A stretch of 64,000 bases of DNA from assembly GCF_000330705.1 (NCBI RefSeq), contig NZ_ANAM01000008.1:310001-374000 (forward strand), read 5' to 3'. The stretch comes from Salinicoccus carnicancri Crm (lineage in GTDB: Bacteria > Bacillota > Bacilli > Staphylococcales > Salinicoccaceae). Shown in pieces: positions 1 through 57,811 of this stretch (positions are counted from its first letter, which is position 1; every line of letters starts with the position of its first letter). Position numbers and translations under genes: made by a program. The notes beneath the pieces were generated by a model that did no database searches, had not been told where the DNA came from, and saw only the letters and a list, made by a program, of their open reading frames with translations.

Positions 1-946
1 CACCGGTGAACGGATTGGTTGCGTAAGCACCTGTAAAAGTGCCTGTTTTGACCTTCGCAAGATCCGTACGCTCGAGGTCGCTCTTACGGGCAGCCCGTTC
101 CTGATAGTCCTTCACACTGTCCCTGTGCTCATCGGTCGTAATCCTGTCGATCAGTTCGTGTTCAGGCGACAGCACGACATATGTCGCACCGTACACCGTA
201 TCCGGCCGTGTTGTGAACACATTGAATGATTCATCAGACCCATCAATCTCAAACTTGATATTGGCCCCTTCGGATTTGCCAATCCAGTTGCGCTGCATAT
301 CCTTGAGTGATTCCGGCCAGTCCAGGTCCTCAAGGTCTTCGAGCAGGCGGTCGGCATATTCAGTGATCCTGAGCATCCACTGGCGCATCGGTTTTCTCAC
401 TACCGGATGACCGCCACGCTCAGACAGCCCGTCGATCACCTCTTCGTTCGCGAGCACAGTGCCAAGCGCCTCACACCAGTTGACAGGAACTTCATCAACA
501 TAGGCAAGTCCTTTGTTGTACAACTGTATGAAAATCCACTGCGTCCATTTGTAGTACTGCGGATCCGTCGTATTTATCTCTCGACCCCAATCATAGCTGA
601 AACCGAGTTCCTTGATCTGGCGGCGGAAGTTATTGATGTTCATCTGGTTGAATTCCGTAATGTCGTTGCCTGTATCAATCGCATACTGTTCTGCAGGCAG
701 ACCGAATGCATCCCACCCCATCGGATGGAGTACATTATACCCCTGCATGCGTTTCATGCGAGAGATGATATCTGTTGCCGTATACCCTTCCGGATGGCCT
801 ACATGGAGGCCGGCGCCCGACGGGTATGGGAACATGTCCAGCGCATAGAATTTCTTTTTGCCCAGTTCATCCTCCGTCCTGAAAGTCTTTTCTGTTTCCC
901 AATGATGCTGCCATTTTTCCTCGATTTCCTTATGGTCAAACGTCAT
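1..946 (-). CDS. leuS: Leucyl-tRNA synthetase, N-terminal part (runs off window)
   Basis: Charges tRNA-Leu with leucine in the cytoplasm. Only the first 315 residues lie in the window; the 3' end is cut by the left edge. The visible protein begins [13 protein letters not shown] and carries the class I HIGH-type motif as HVGH within [16 protein letters not shown], near residue 45. It then continues into the typical LeuRS Rossmann core (NPV-type text [16 protein letters not shown]) and the start of the editing insertion. The start at 946 follows a GGGGAGGAAT Shine-Dalgarno. The gene sits directly behind a T-box leader, so expression should rise when uncharged tRNA-Leu accumulates. Identification is secure. 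Confidence 0.97.
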
Positions 947-964
947 AAAAATTCCTCCCCGTAA

Positions 965-1162
965 ATAAAAAATCCCATGCCTGTATAAGGCATGGGACGA
1001 TCGTATAATCTATACAACCGCGGTACCACCCGCATTCACTTTAAAGTGCAGCTTAATTTTTTATGAGATTAGGTTGACATCGGACGAGTTCACATACATC
1101 CACTGCCGGCTTCCACCATACGCGGCTCTCTTGTAATGGAATGTATACTACTACTTCCGACA
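965..1162 (-). promoter_or_regulatory. T-box leader of leuS (leucine-responsive)
   Basis: On the minus strand the conserved T-box sequence GGGTGGTACCGCGG lies at 1018-1031. It is followed by an intrinsic terminator whose stem CCCATGCC/GGCATGGG is at 974-996, with a U-rich tail at 965-973. A CUC triplet (Leu) in a GAACUC context at 1086-1088 is the likely specifier codon. Stem I appears rather short. Uncharged tRNA-Leu would stabilise the antiterminator and let transcription enter leuS. Confidence 0.93.
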
Positions 1163-37372: not shown

Positions 37373-37450
37373 ATCATGCTCTTACCAATTTTCGGTTATT
37401 GCTGTTAAAATGGCAGGAGATAAGAAAACAATGAAATGCAGGAGGCAGAC

Positions 37451-37966
37451 ATGAAACTACGTCCGTTAGAAGAAAGAGACCTTGAATTCATCCATGAACT
37501 CGCCAATGATTACTCATTGATGTCATATTGGTTCGAAGAACCCTATAATTCATTGGAGAAATTGAAAGAACACTACCGGAACAACACTTCCGGAGAATCT
37601 GCAAGAAGATTCGTTGTCATGAATGAACTGGACAAGGTTGGAATCGTGGATCTTGACTATATCGACTTTATCCACCGCCATTGCGAAATCATGCTGATCA
37701 TCAAGCCCGAGTTCAGTGGAAACGGCTTCGCAAAATTCGCATTCAAAGAGGCGACTAAATATGCTTTCGAAGTGTTGAACATGCACAAAGTGTATTTGTA
37801 TGTAGATGTTGAAAACGAAAAAGCAGTGGGAATATACAAAAAACAAGGGTTTAAAAATGAGGGTGTCCTCAGAGAACACTTTTATGCAAAAGGAAAGTAC
37901 AAAGATGCTGCATTCATGTCCATATTGAAGCATGAATGGCTGAAAGAAAGAGCGGAAGGACGATAA
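37451..37966 (+). CDS. GNAT-family N-acetyltransferase (SpeG/RimJ-like)
   Basis: 171-residue acetyltransferase. ATG 37451 follows AGGAGGCAGAC; an upstream in-frame ATG at 37436 overlaps the ribosome site. Motifs: MKLRPLEERDLEFIHELA at the start, IDFIHRHCEIMLIIKPEFSG near 75-95, the acetyl-CoA loop GNGFAKFAFKEATKYAF near 96 and NEKAVGIYKKQGFKNEG near 125, all like spermidine/ribosomal-protein acetyltransferases. The acceptor amine cannot be fixed from sequence. No co-transcribed partner is evident. Confidence 0.83.
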   Translation: MKLRPLEERDLEFIHELANDYSLMSYWFEEPYNSLEKLKEHYRNNTSGESARRFVVMNELDKVGIVDLDYIDFIHRHCEIMLIIKPEFSGNGFAKFAFKEATKYAFEVLNMHKVYLYVDVENEKAVGIYKKQGFKNEGVLREHFYAKGKYKDAAFMSILKHEWLKERAEGR

Positions 37967-38119: not shown

Positions 38120-38302
38120 CTATTTTAAGCGCTTGACCTTCTTCACCTGATTCGGAAAAATTTCATTCCCGTTCAGCATCAAGTGTCCACGGCCCTCTTC
38201 CTTGGCCTTCTGTATCGCTTCCTTCAGGCTCTCAACTGTGTGGATATTGGTATAGATGGTCTGCCGCAGCCGGTTCTTATATATTATTCTGAATTTCTTT
38301 AT
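38120..38302 (-). CDS. Small basic protein with apparent ATA start (60 residues)
   Basis: Missed by usual ORF rules because the first codon is ATA. The minus-strand frame begins IKKFRIIYKNRLRQTIYTNI, continues VESLKEAIQKAKEEGRGHLM and ends FPNQVKKVKRLK. An excellent GAGGGGGG ribosome site is six bases before the ATA, and an in-frame TGA lies directly upstream. Codon choice and amino-acid pattern look coding, and the basic 60-residue product seems intact. Either this is a non-AUG start or the ATG has recently mutated. Family not recognised. No promoter was identified; transcription may come from the upstream region near 38340. Confidence 0.6.
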   Translation of the reverse strand: MKKFRIIYKNRLRQTIYTNIHTVESLKEAIQKAKEEGRGHLMLNGNEIFPNQVKKVKRLK

Positions 38303-38383
38303 AGTAATCCCCCCTCAAAATCCCTCTATCTATAATTTTAATATTATGTAAAGAAATTATCAAATCATTAAACCGTTAAAATG

Positions 38384-38415
38384 AAAAAGACCCGTAAACA
38401 CATGGTTTACGGGTC
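38384..38415 (-). terminator. Terminator of the Asn-Ser tRNA pair
   Basis: Minus-strand GACCCGTAAACC/GGTTTACGGGTC-like stem (38389-38415) followed by TTTTTC. Confidence 0.85.
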
Positions 38416-38419
38416 GAAA

Positions 38420-38508
38420 CGGAGATGGAGGGATTTGAACCCTCGCGCCGGGAAAACCGACCTACACCCTTAGCAGGGGCGCCTCTTCAGCCACTTGAGT
38501 ACATCTCC
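38420..38508 (-). tRNA. tRNA-Ser (anticodon GCT)
   Basis: 89 bases with acceptor GGAGATG/CATCTCC, a long variable arm and anticodon loop CTGCTAA (GCT). CCA not encoded. Confidence 0.95.
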
Positions 38509-38509
38509 A

Positions 38510-38584
38510 TGGCTCCACAGGTAGGATTCGAACCTACGACCGATCGGTTAACAGCCGATAGCTCTACCACTGAGCTACTGTGGA
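38510..38584 (-). tRNA. tRNA-Asn (anticodon GTT), copy 2
   Basis: Same 75 bases as the copy at 34621-34695, including encoded CCA; loop CTGTTAA. Confidence 0.96.
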
Positions 38585-40823: not shown

Positions 40824-42194
40824 TTATTTGGTTATGCTTTCCACAGCTGCCTTTGCCTGACTGACACAATCCGGCAGACCCACACCATGATGGGATGCCC
40901 CTGTAAGGACGATGCCCGGGTAGTGCTCCGTCATATACTTCCGGACTGCATCCACTCTGGATTTGTGCCCCACTTTATACTGCGGCATGGAGCGCTTCAT
41001 CTTCGTAACGATTGTGAACTCGGGTTCACCTTCAAGATCCATGATCTTATCCAGGTCCTTCCTTGCCAGGCTGGCGATTTCACTCTCACTTTTCTCATGG
41101 ACGATGAAATCTCCCGGTCGGCCGACATAGGCCCTGAGGAGCGCCTTCCCTGATGGAGTGGAGTGCTTCCATTTCTTGCTTGTCCATGTACATGCTGTAA
41201 TGGAAGTATCCATCCTCCGTGATACGACGAAGCCTGTGCCGTCGATATCATTTTTCACCTGATGCTGATCAAATGCCATGACGACTGTCGCCACACTGGT
41301 TGCTTCCATATGTTTGAAATACTCAAGGGGCAGGTCGTCGAACCATCTCTTGTACTGGAAATGGGGGGTAGTGATGATTATGCGGTCGTACTCTTTCACC
41401 CCACCATCCACCTGCACCGCATATGTTTCACCATTTTTGGTGATGGCTTCCACATCACTCCCAAAATGAACATTGACCCCGCTTTCAATATTCACTTTCA
41501 GAAGACGGTCGATGAAAGACTGGAGACCGTTCCTGAACTGCAGGAACTGGCCTACTTTCCTGCCTTTGGGCTTGTCCGATGAAGCCGGCTTCTCCGCAAT
41601 GGCACCTTTGATGAGACTGCCATACTTCTCCTCTCTCTCTTTGAAGTAAGGAAAGGTGGACATCAGGCTCAACTCATCGATGTTTGTCGCATATATCCCC
41701 GAAAGGAGCGGCTCTATCATATTTTCGAGAACATCATCCCCGAGCCTTCTTCTGAAGAAGCTTCCCACAGATACATCCGTATACAGAGGTGTGGGTTTCT
41801 TGAAGAGATCAAGTCCGGCGGCGAGCTTTCCGGTGGCTGAGACCAGATCGGTGGTAAGGAACGGGCCGAGCTCCGTCGGCACACCGAGCACAGAACCTTT
41901 TGGCAATGCGGATAATTTATTGTTCGAATATATATAGGACTGCCCGGTTGAATTCCTTACCAGGTCATCCCCCATGCCGATTTCTTCAGCCAGTTCGGTC
42001 ATTATCGTCTTTCTTGCCAAATAGGATTCCGGGCCGAGCTCGATGGTATAGCCGTGCCTCTGGTGCGTCCTGATCTTACCGCCGGCCCGGCTGTCTTTCT
42101 CAAACAGGTCTATTTCCAGATCACTGTGCTTTGAGAGGTAGAATGCCGCTGAAAGTCCGGTAATACCTGCTCCGATTATGGCTACTTTCTTCAC
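40824..42194 (-). CDS. hemY: Coproporphyrinogen III oxidase (HemY/CgoX)
   Basis: FAD enzyme oxidising coproporphyrinogen III to coproporphyrin III in the Gram-positive haem route; 456 residues, membrane-associated. The N-terminal dinucleotide motif is VAIIGAGITGLSAAFYLS, followed by FEKDSRAGGKIRTHQR near residue 33 and ELGPESYLARK near 55. The C-terminal LTGASHHGVGLPDCVSQAKAA is typical of protoporphyrinogen-oxidase-type proteins. It ends the operon hemE-hemH-hemY, 18 bases after hemH. Confidence 0.95.
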   Translation of the reverse strand: MKKVAIIGAGITGLSAAFYLSKHSDLEIDLFEKDSRAGGKIRTHQRHGYTIELGPESYLARKTIMTELAEEIGMGDDLVRNSTGQSYIYSNNKLSALPKGSVLGVPTELGPFLTTDLVSATGKLAAGLDLFKKPTPLYTDVSVGSFFRRRLGDDVLENMIEPLLSGIYATNIDELSLMSTFPYFKEREEKYGSLIKGAIAEKPASSDKPKGRKVGQFLQFRNGLQSFIDRLLKVNIESGVNVHFGSDVEAITKNGETYAVQVDGGVKEYDRIIITTPHFQYKRWFDDLPLEYFKHMEATSVATVVMAFDQHQVKNDIDGTGFVVSRRMDTSITACTWTSKKWKHSTPSGKALLRAYVGRPGDFIVHEKSESEIASLARKDLDKIMDLEGEPEFTIVTKMKRSMPQYKVGHKSRVDAVRKYMTEHYPGIVLTGASHHGVGLPDCVSQAKAAVESITK

Positions 42195-56398: not shown

Positions 56399-57703
56399 TC
56401 AGGCGTTCGGTTTGGTGCTCTGCAAACCTTTTTTCTCTTCCTTGACATCCTGCTGATGATCAAGGACTGTTGCAATGGCTGCATCACCTGTGATGTTCGT
56501 CATTGTCCTTGTCATATCAAGCAGACGGTCAATTCCGATGATGATGCCGATTGCCGCCGGATCGAGCCCGACCGCTGTGAGCACCATAGCGAGCATGACC
56601 AGGCCGACACCTGGAACCCCGGCAGTACCGATGCTCGCAACTGTAGCGATGACAACGACAGTCACCATCTGACCCAATGTCAGGTCCACTCCTGAGAGCT
56701 GTGCGATGAAAACTGTTGCAACCCCCTGCATGATTGCAGTGCCATCCATATTGATTGTCGCTCCCAGCGGCTGGACGAAGCTTGATATACCTTTACGGAT
56801 CCCAAGCCTTTTCTGGGCAGTTTCCAGAGAGATAGGCAGCACAGCGCTGGATGAAGATGTACTGAATGCCACACCCATCGCCGGCGCAAAGTTTTTAATG
56901 AACCATATGAAACTCTTTTTCGCCATGAACTGTACCATCGAACCGTACACAAGTGCCAAATGGATGAACAATGCCAGCAGAACACAGATGAAGTAGAGTC
57001 CCAACTGTCTTATCGCACCAAATCCAGCCTGCGTAAAGGCAGTAGCAACAAGGCCGAATGCACCGATTGCTGCGAAATATTTCATGATTGCCATTACAAT
57101 CCACATAACAACTTCATTGGCCTGTTCGAACAGATCCACAAGGCGGCCGATCTTATCTTTTACGGATATCATGGCGATACCGATGAATACGGCAAAGGCG
57201 ATGACCTGGAGCATGTTGTCCGTTGCCATGGCATCGAAAACATTCGTCGGAATGATGTTGATCAGTGTCTGATCGACTGTCTGTTCAATCGCTTTACCGG
57301 TTTCCCCACCTTCAAGTTCTGAAGTACGGTAGTCTGAAACCTCCTCCGAATCGAGGAGTTCAGACTGTCCGACACCCGGGTCCAGAACGTTTGCTGTGAT
57401 CATGGCAATTGAAATCGCAATTGCTGTAGTCAGCAAGTAAAATCCTATCGTCTTGACCCCCAGGCTTCCGAGCGTTTTCGGATCTCCGACATTATATACA
57501 CCCAGCACAATGGAGATGAATACAATAGGCACAACCATCATGAAAATCATGTTAAGGAACAATTGTCCGATTACATTGAATATGTACTGGTCGATCCATT
57601 GAACCCACCCCTGATCTGTCATAGGGCTGAGTACTGAACCAACCGCTATACCTAAAATCAAACCTAATACGATATACAGAGTCATTCTGTTACCGACTTT
57701 CAT
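56399..57703 (-). CDS. Dicarboxylate/amino acid:cation symporter (DAACS, GltT/GltP-like)
   Basis: Sodium/proton-coupled transporter for glutamate, aspartate or C4-dicarboxylates; 434 residues from ATG 57701-57703 with GGGGGG upstream (ATG 57754 would add seventeen residues before it). Family signatures: FSTSSSSAVLPISLETAQ near residue 280 (serine-rich re-entrant loop), LGATINMDGTAIMQGVA near 315 (NMDGT) and VGLDPAAIGIIIGIDRLLDM near 390. Around eight helices plus two re-entrant loops. Terminator follows; monocistronic. Precise substrate not determined. Confidence 0.92.
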   Translation of the reverse strand: MKVGNRMTLYIVLGLILGIAVGSVLSPMTDQGWVQWIDQYIFNVIGQLFLNMIFMMVVPIVFISIVLGVYNVGDPKTLGSLGVKTIGFYLLTTAIAISIAMITANVLDPGVGQSELLDSEEVSDYRTSELEGGETGKAIEQTVDQTLINIIPTNVFDAMATDNMLQVIAFAVFIGIAMISVKDKIGRLVDLFEQANEVVMWIVMAIMKYFAAIGAFGLVATAFTQAGFGAIRQLGLYFICVLLALFIHLALVYGSMVQFMAKKSFIWFIKNFAPAMGVAFSTSSSSAVLPISLETAQKRLGIRKGISSFVQPLGATINMDGTAIMQGVATVFIAQLSGVDLTLGQMVTVVVIATVASIGTAGVPGVGLVMLAMVLTAVGLDPAAIGIIIGIDRLLDMTRTMTNITGDAAIATVLDHQQDVKEEKKGLQSTKPNA

Positions 57704-57811
57704 AAAATCCCCCCATAACTTTGAAAGTGCTCGTCTCATTATAAAGCTATGCATTCAATTTTGTAAACTGATAATTTGTAACCGTTTACCATAGTGATAC
57801 TGAAGGTCTGG

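Follow-up and report, generated by a model that had tools for sequence, protein, structure and literature searches.

A 60-residue gene of Salinicoccus probably translated from a conserved AUA/AUU start codon

To our knowledge, few bacterial genes besides infC use AUA or AUU as a start codon by design. The infC gene of Escherichia coli starts with ATT (PMC5472188), and in Staphylococcus aureus the starts of infC (AUA), ccpN (AUA), cvfC1 (AUU) and citZ (AUA) were found by Ribo-Ret (PMC13009471). In poor medium, reporters carrying the S. aureus cvfC1, ccpN and citZ starts reached about 10% of the output obtained with AUG, and in rich medium the ccpN reporter reached up to 30% (PMC13009471). Reporters in Listeria ranked the codons as ATG > ATA > ATT (PMC13068326). 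In Streptomyces, sigR starts with GTC, and its repression by IF3 has been demonstrated by experiment (PMC5472188). Conserved AUA/AUU starts with an extended Shine-Dalgarno (SD) sequence in S. aureus, and fixed non-canonical starts in six Listeria genes, are already published. What appears to be new here is a gene of the conserved AUA/AUU-start kind in another genus, accompanied by an ATG-started sister group. Gene finders limited to ATG, GTG and TTG cannot place genes that start with AUA or AUU. We found no paper on this small gene in the open literature, and titles and abstract openings combining Salinicoccus with start codons showed no link.

The window is a stretch of 64,000 nucleotides from Salinicoccus carnicancri Crm, in which the first-pass annotation had pointed to a 60-residue frame with ATA in place of ATG at 38120-38302, leaving its strand unstated. 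The frame was confirmed on the minus strand, with ATA at 38302-38300, 60 sense codons and a TAG stop at 38122-38120. The SD sequence proposed to lie six bases before ATA is there as well, with GAGGGGGG at 38316-38309 followed by ATTACT and then ATA, and the proposed upstream in-frame stop is a TGA at 38317-38315. The claim that no other start lies near the ribosome site held, since ATG, GTG and TTG are absent in frame from this TGA to codon 40, and the first canonical in-frame codons after ATA are an adjacent TTG and ATG at codons 41 and 42. An in-frame ATT at 38308-38306, two codons before ATA, had gone unmentioned. The small gene is also preceded by an in-frame stop in S. sediminis, S. halodurans and S. 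albus. The features of the locus are as follows.

37436..37966, plus strand: gene for a SpeG-like GNAT acetyltransferase, in convergent orientation to the small gene
38120..38302, minus strand: small coding sequence, 60 residues plus TAG, marked by homologues in three named Salinicoccus species, by dN/dS and by a third-position bias over codons 2-40
38306..38316, minus strand: extended SD sequence GAGGGGGGATT; its predicted duplex with the 16S tail GGATCACCTCCTTTCT leaves one A of the tail bulged
38317..38315, minus strand: in-frame TGA, five codons before ATA, with GGG GGG ATT ACT between
38335..38363, minus strand: promoter-like TTGATA-17-TAAAAT, 10 of 12 consensus matches
38389..38415, minus strand: terminator-like hairpin after the upstream tRNA-Asn/tRNA-Ser unit, parting the tRNA unit from the small gene
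38419-38509 and 38510-38584: tRNA-Asn/tRNA-Ser unit, two tRNAs upstream of the small gene

A protein search of 60 genomes, the window's own included, detected the small protein in 10. The profile search found it in 4 of the 12 genomes of the genus and in all 6 of the neighbouring genus, and not in the other 15 genomes of the family; in the order as a whole, 10 of 157 genomes, belonging to only two of 14 genera, gave a match. Identity to the window protein was 97% in S. sediminis, 88% in S. halodurans and 60% in S. albus, and 32-33% in the homologues of the neighbouring genus, which include S. kekensis, S. halitifaciens and Lacicoccus alkaliphilus. When the start was looked up in the relatives, as the first-pass annotation had suggested, the codon at the same place was ATA in S. 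sediminis and S. halodurans, as in the window species, and ATT in S. albus. Of the genomes of the group that can be read here, four in number, none has AUG, GUG or UUG at the homologous start. In the neighbouring genus, all six homologues, two of them identical in DNA, carry ATG at aligned column 1.

Pairwise dN/dS, calculated by the Nei-Gojobori method, was 0.046 between the window and S. sediminis (dS 0.32) and 0.033 between S. sediminis and S. halodurans. The value of 0.026 between the window and S. halodurans is rough, since a dS of 2.1 is near saturation, and the synonymous sites of S. albus are saturated against the other carriers. The comparison of species shows purifying selection on the coding frame. 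In each of the six species pairs, third codon positions take a disproportionate share of the substitutions, even when only codons 2-40 are considered, and this bias points to a start before the internal TTG and ATG (codons 41-42). In all probability, the small gene has been translated from a point upstream of codon 2 for as long as the carrier species have been diverging. A conserved stretch acting as RNA or DNA, and not as protein, would agree with the well-conserved 5' region and the odd start, but it leaves unexplained why third-position substitutions dominate codons 2-40 in six pairs, and the start region was predicted to fold no better than its shuffles in the four species (z -0.79 to +0.99); we consider such a role very improbable.

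The first-pass annotation had left two alternatives, a natural AUA-initiated gene and a very recent loss of the start codon. The comparison of species argues for the former and against the latter, in that ATA, ATA and ATT are conserved in the relatives and the frame is under purifying selection. If a former ATG gene were now silent or decaying, the ATG of the distant relatives in the neighbouring genus would find a ready explanation; however, ATA or ATT is present in 4 of 4 readable genomes up to saturated synonymous divergence, and dN/dS is below 0.05 wherever it is measurable, which leaves recent loss scarcely credible.

To describe the ribosome site, we predicted SD duplex energies for the pairing of the 16S tail with the 26 bases before the start; this tail, GGATCACCTCCTTTCT, is present three times in the genome. 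The predicted duplexes of the window, S. sediminis, S. halodurans and S. albus have energies of -14.4, -16.5, -18.5 and -11.1 kcal/mol, respectively, and those of the six ATG homologues range from -8.2 to -9.5 kcal/mol. A start-proximal extension of the helix (GAUU or GAUC) is paired in three of the four species, S. albus having AAGGAGG without the extension; a strong SD sequence together with the extension is present in three species and in part in S. albus. The strength of pairing is not unique to the small gene, as the best candidate start of each window ORF of at least 120 codons (55 ORFs) has a mean of -11.0, 6 of the 55 reach -14.4, and the S. albus value of -11.1 equals the median of these ORFs. 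The predicted helix of the window and that of S. sediminis each contain a bulged A contributed by the 16S tail. Cryo-EM of S. aureus ribosomes on aur mRNA showed an AU extension with A1546 flipped out (PMC13009471), and we infer that the bulged base here may be equivalent to A1546.

Two further readings bear on which codon holds the first residue. The codon two before the start reads ATT, ATC, ATC and ATT across the four species, in frame and with only the third position varying, and a start at this AUU/AUC (38308-38306), itself a non-canonical AUN codon, would yield 62 residues and would count against initiation at AUA/AUU. However, a single base separates AAGGAGG from this ATT in S. albus, the predicted SD helix of the window takes in this ATT, the ATG of the ATG-started homologues lines up with the later codon, and the GAT part is explained as the start-proximal SD extension. 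We attribute the conservation of the upstream ATT/ATC to its service as this extension, and regard a start there as unlikely. In S. halodurans, moreover, a GTG stands in frame nine bases before the ATA, a point against the ATA reading, though this GTG lies within the predicted SD helix. Alternatively, a canonical start might lie upstream in another frame, with +1 frameshifting on the G run; by eye, a TTG in the window and ATG-TTG in S. sediminis lie in a frame that a +1 shift would join to the small gene. Yet S. halodurans has a TAG before the G run in that frame, S. albus has neither a G run nor any ATG, GTG or TTG after the last stop in that frame, few codons would be read before the shift, and the ATG-started homologues need none, so that frameshifting merits hardly any credence.

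The arrangement of an SD sequence, ATA and an open frame is not, by itself, beyond chance. A scan of the window for an AUN codon with an SD energy of -11 kcal/mol or better, an upstream stop within at most 10 codons and at least 60 open codons returned 4 hits, as compared with 1.7 on average in 10 windows whose sequence had been shuffled block by block (300 bases each). The small frame is judged to be real because it is conserved across species, rather than by its arrangement alone. The three other hits look spurious, two of them lying inside longer ORFs (40824-42194 and 56399-57754) and the remaining one preceding the ATG of an ORF that runs off the low end of the window. As a side observation on the minus strand of window positions 1-1120, the ORF running off the low end, named leuS-like by eye, is preceded some 70 bases upstream of its ATG by GGTGGTACCGCGG, with a hairpin and a T run behind it, an arrangement that resembles a T-box leader.

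We found no match to the small gene in 8 of the 12 genomes of the genus, and a DNA search of these eight, G006 among them, yielded nothing longer than 40 bases, and we attribute these short stretches to chance. Two weak tblastn matches in genomes without the gene were also rejected as chance: the first (L054) lies antisense inside a 513-residue ORF that looks permease-like by eye, and the second (L057) is a stretch of nearly the same sequence. In G006, the contig carrying the SpeG-like gene breaks off 57 bases past the matched stretch and the one carrying comK a short way beyond that gene, which leaves the site of the small gene unassembled. The comK of this genome (L049, G006:C28:34763-35356) shows one TGA within the match, near the contig end. 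In a ComK tree of the 12 genomes, the four carriers and G006 fall on one side of a well-supported branch (support 100/98), and the seven genomes without the small gene all fall on the opposite side; the tree has only a midpoint root, five of its eight inner forks are open, and two rows of the neighbouring genus were dropped by the motif filter. Since the absentees cluster on this tree, the absence of the small gene follows phylogeny. The first-pass annotation had counted a lack of the frame in many relatives as evidence against the gene; 8 of 12 genomes do lack a match, but one of these is an assembly gap and the other seven follow the phylogeny.

Taken together, these results suggest that the frame is, in all likelihood, a real, lineage-restricted gene of 60 residues translated from a conserved AUA/AUU codon. 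The first residue of the protein is expected to be fMet. The SD helix would place the initiator tRNA on AUA/AUU, as at the mapped AUA/AUU sites of S. aureus, and the strong, mostly start-proximal pairing would make up for the weak start codon. IF3 would reject most of the AUA/AUU initiation complexes, keeping output low, and a shortage of IF3 or altered initiation conditions would raise it.

The same gene might be translated from AUA/AUU with the start codon itself being nearly neutral, AUG having been lost once in the ancestor of the group, with a stronger SD sequence compensating and a low output tolerated. A single event on the ComK tree suffices for this, the predicted SD pairing is indeed stronger, and the small protein occurs in only two of the 14 genera of the order. 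ATA is a single A-to-G step away from ATG, a step seen in none of the four genomes, even though in the more distant pairs roughly every second comparable third position shows an A/G difference (conserved K/E/Q codons; 7 of 15 when the window is set against S. halodurans, 9 of 13 when S. halodurans is set against S. albus). The failure of a single codon to revert is, however, weak statistics when comparable differences reach only about half, and this also limits the case for the preferred reading. We hold a nearly neutral start to be quite possible, at somewhat less than an even chance; it is compatible with translation from AUA/AUU in everything except the regulatory part. As to that part, the AUA/AUU start may have been kept by selection as a control element, placing the small protein together with infC in a set that rises when IF3 becomes limiting or initiation fidelity falls, and this control would have been lost from, or never present in, the neighbouring genus, where the start is ATG and the SD sequence weaker. 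We put this forward tentatively, as a rather doubtful proposal from sequence comparison; if true, the cell would read its own initiation state through its start codons. The small gene could serve as a small test gene for the question of whether weak start codons are kept for regulation, and the family offers a natural comparison between ATG with an ordinary SD sequence in one genus and AUA/AUU with a stronger, mostly extended one in the other. More such genes may come to light in comparative scans for frames that lack ATG yet have strong SD pairing close to the start.

In its surroundings, the small gene has promoter-like hexamers in all four species, the window sequence aligning with TTGATA/TAAAAT, TTGATA/TAATAT and TTGATT/TAAAAT in the other three, and a short leader, rather than a leaderless mRNA, is expected from this alignment. 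The comK gene (Pfam ComK) lies beyond the tRNAs as seen from the small gene. The small gene adjoins SpeG-like and glyoxalase-like genes in 4 of 4 carrier species, in convergent orientation to the former, while its distance to comK varies. The best NCBIfam match of the SpeG-like gene is spermidine N1-acetyltransferase, at 177 bits and below the cut-off of 218. A functional tie between the small gene and its SpeG-like neighbour, through a link between polyamines and weak start codons, is a speculation, against which five genomes of another genus carry a close SpeG-like relative (56-59%) without the small gene.

The small protein gave only weak matches in Pfam, NCBIfam and PHROGs (best E 0.013), nothing below E 0.6 in a profile search of the PDB, and no relatives in phage and plasmid collections at E up to 0.1. 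AlphaFold2 returned one model with a mean pLDDT of 92, the other four of five having 53-61, and the predicted fold is strand-strand-helix-strands. A Foldseek search of the PDB found nothing below E 0.1. Rv3208A (7rus, 7rur), of a family that we take to be DUF3107, was superposed on 58 of the 60 residues with a Z of 7.4, an rmsd of 2.4 and 14% identity, the next other entry having a Z of 4.5; its Foldseek E value is 0.66, and a Z below 8 may mean just a common arrangement. At the profile level, none of 6 members gave a Pfam hit to this family at E up to 1, and 7rur and 7rus were not among the PDB profile hits at E up to 1. In a viral library, the best matches (best E 8e-4) were small proteins mostly without a named function, many of them from phages.

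Within these genomes, infC provides a second AUN start. Its start region is GGAGGTG-TCAAAG-ATA in every one of the 12 genomes of the genus, and likewise in the five loci read from the neighbouring genus; of 30 fetched loci, 17 matched this pattern, and the other 13, from other genera, did not. The predicted SD duplex is -14.7 in 9 of 9 computed loci of these 17, and homology and the position of the SD sequence point to ATA as the probable start. The infC frame also contains GTG, and mostly ATG or TTG as well, in or just before the SD sequence (L107-L111, L113, L117-L124, L128, L129, L136), and automatic annotation may pick a wrong, longer start owing to these codons. We considered ccpN as another in-genome AUA control and rejected it, as all 27 loci with the motif (L137-L156 and L158-L164; 30 fetched) have ATG or GTG; the loci were picked by their place beside a PF03618 gene and by an HTH motif, which we assume to mark ccpN. 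With ATG or GTG here and AUA in S. aureus, the set of genes with non-canonical starts differs between groups, and such starts are not automatically carried over, which counts against the preferred reading of the small gene.

The likeness to infC lies in an AUN start with a strong SD sequence, the same genome reading SD-TCAAAG-ATA at infC. infC controls itself through IF3, whereas the small protein is unrelated, and any control by IF3 would act in trans. Staphylococcus is a genus related to Salinicoccus, and a zinc finger is defined by its cysteines. The S. aureus cvfC1 (AUU, 61 residues) is likewise a very small gene with a start of the AUN type conserved across species and a strong extended SD sequence (PMC13009471). 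By its description, CvfC1 differs in being a possible zinc-finger protein encoded by the first gene of an operon (PMC13009471); the small gene has a promoter-like site of its own, and the window protein contains none of the cysteines of a CvfC1-type zinc finger. The Streptomyces sigR gene shares a conserved non-canonical start with an extensive ribosome-binding site in a gene other than infC, and its third-base variant, GTT in 2 of 34 species, recalls the ATA/ATT of the small gene, but its codon (GTC) is of another class, and its repression by IF3 is experimental where ours would be an expectation from sequence (PMC5472188). The Listeria monocytogenes account differs as a species-level survey, and resembles the present case in that non-canonical starts have become fixed within the wider Gram-positive group, its six conserved genes including infC with ATT and rnhC with ATC (PMC13068326).
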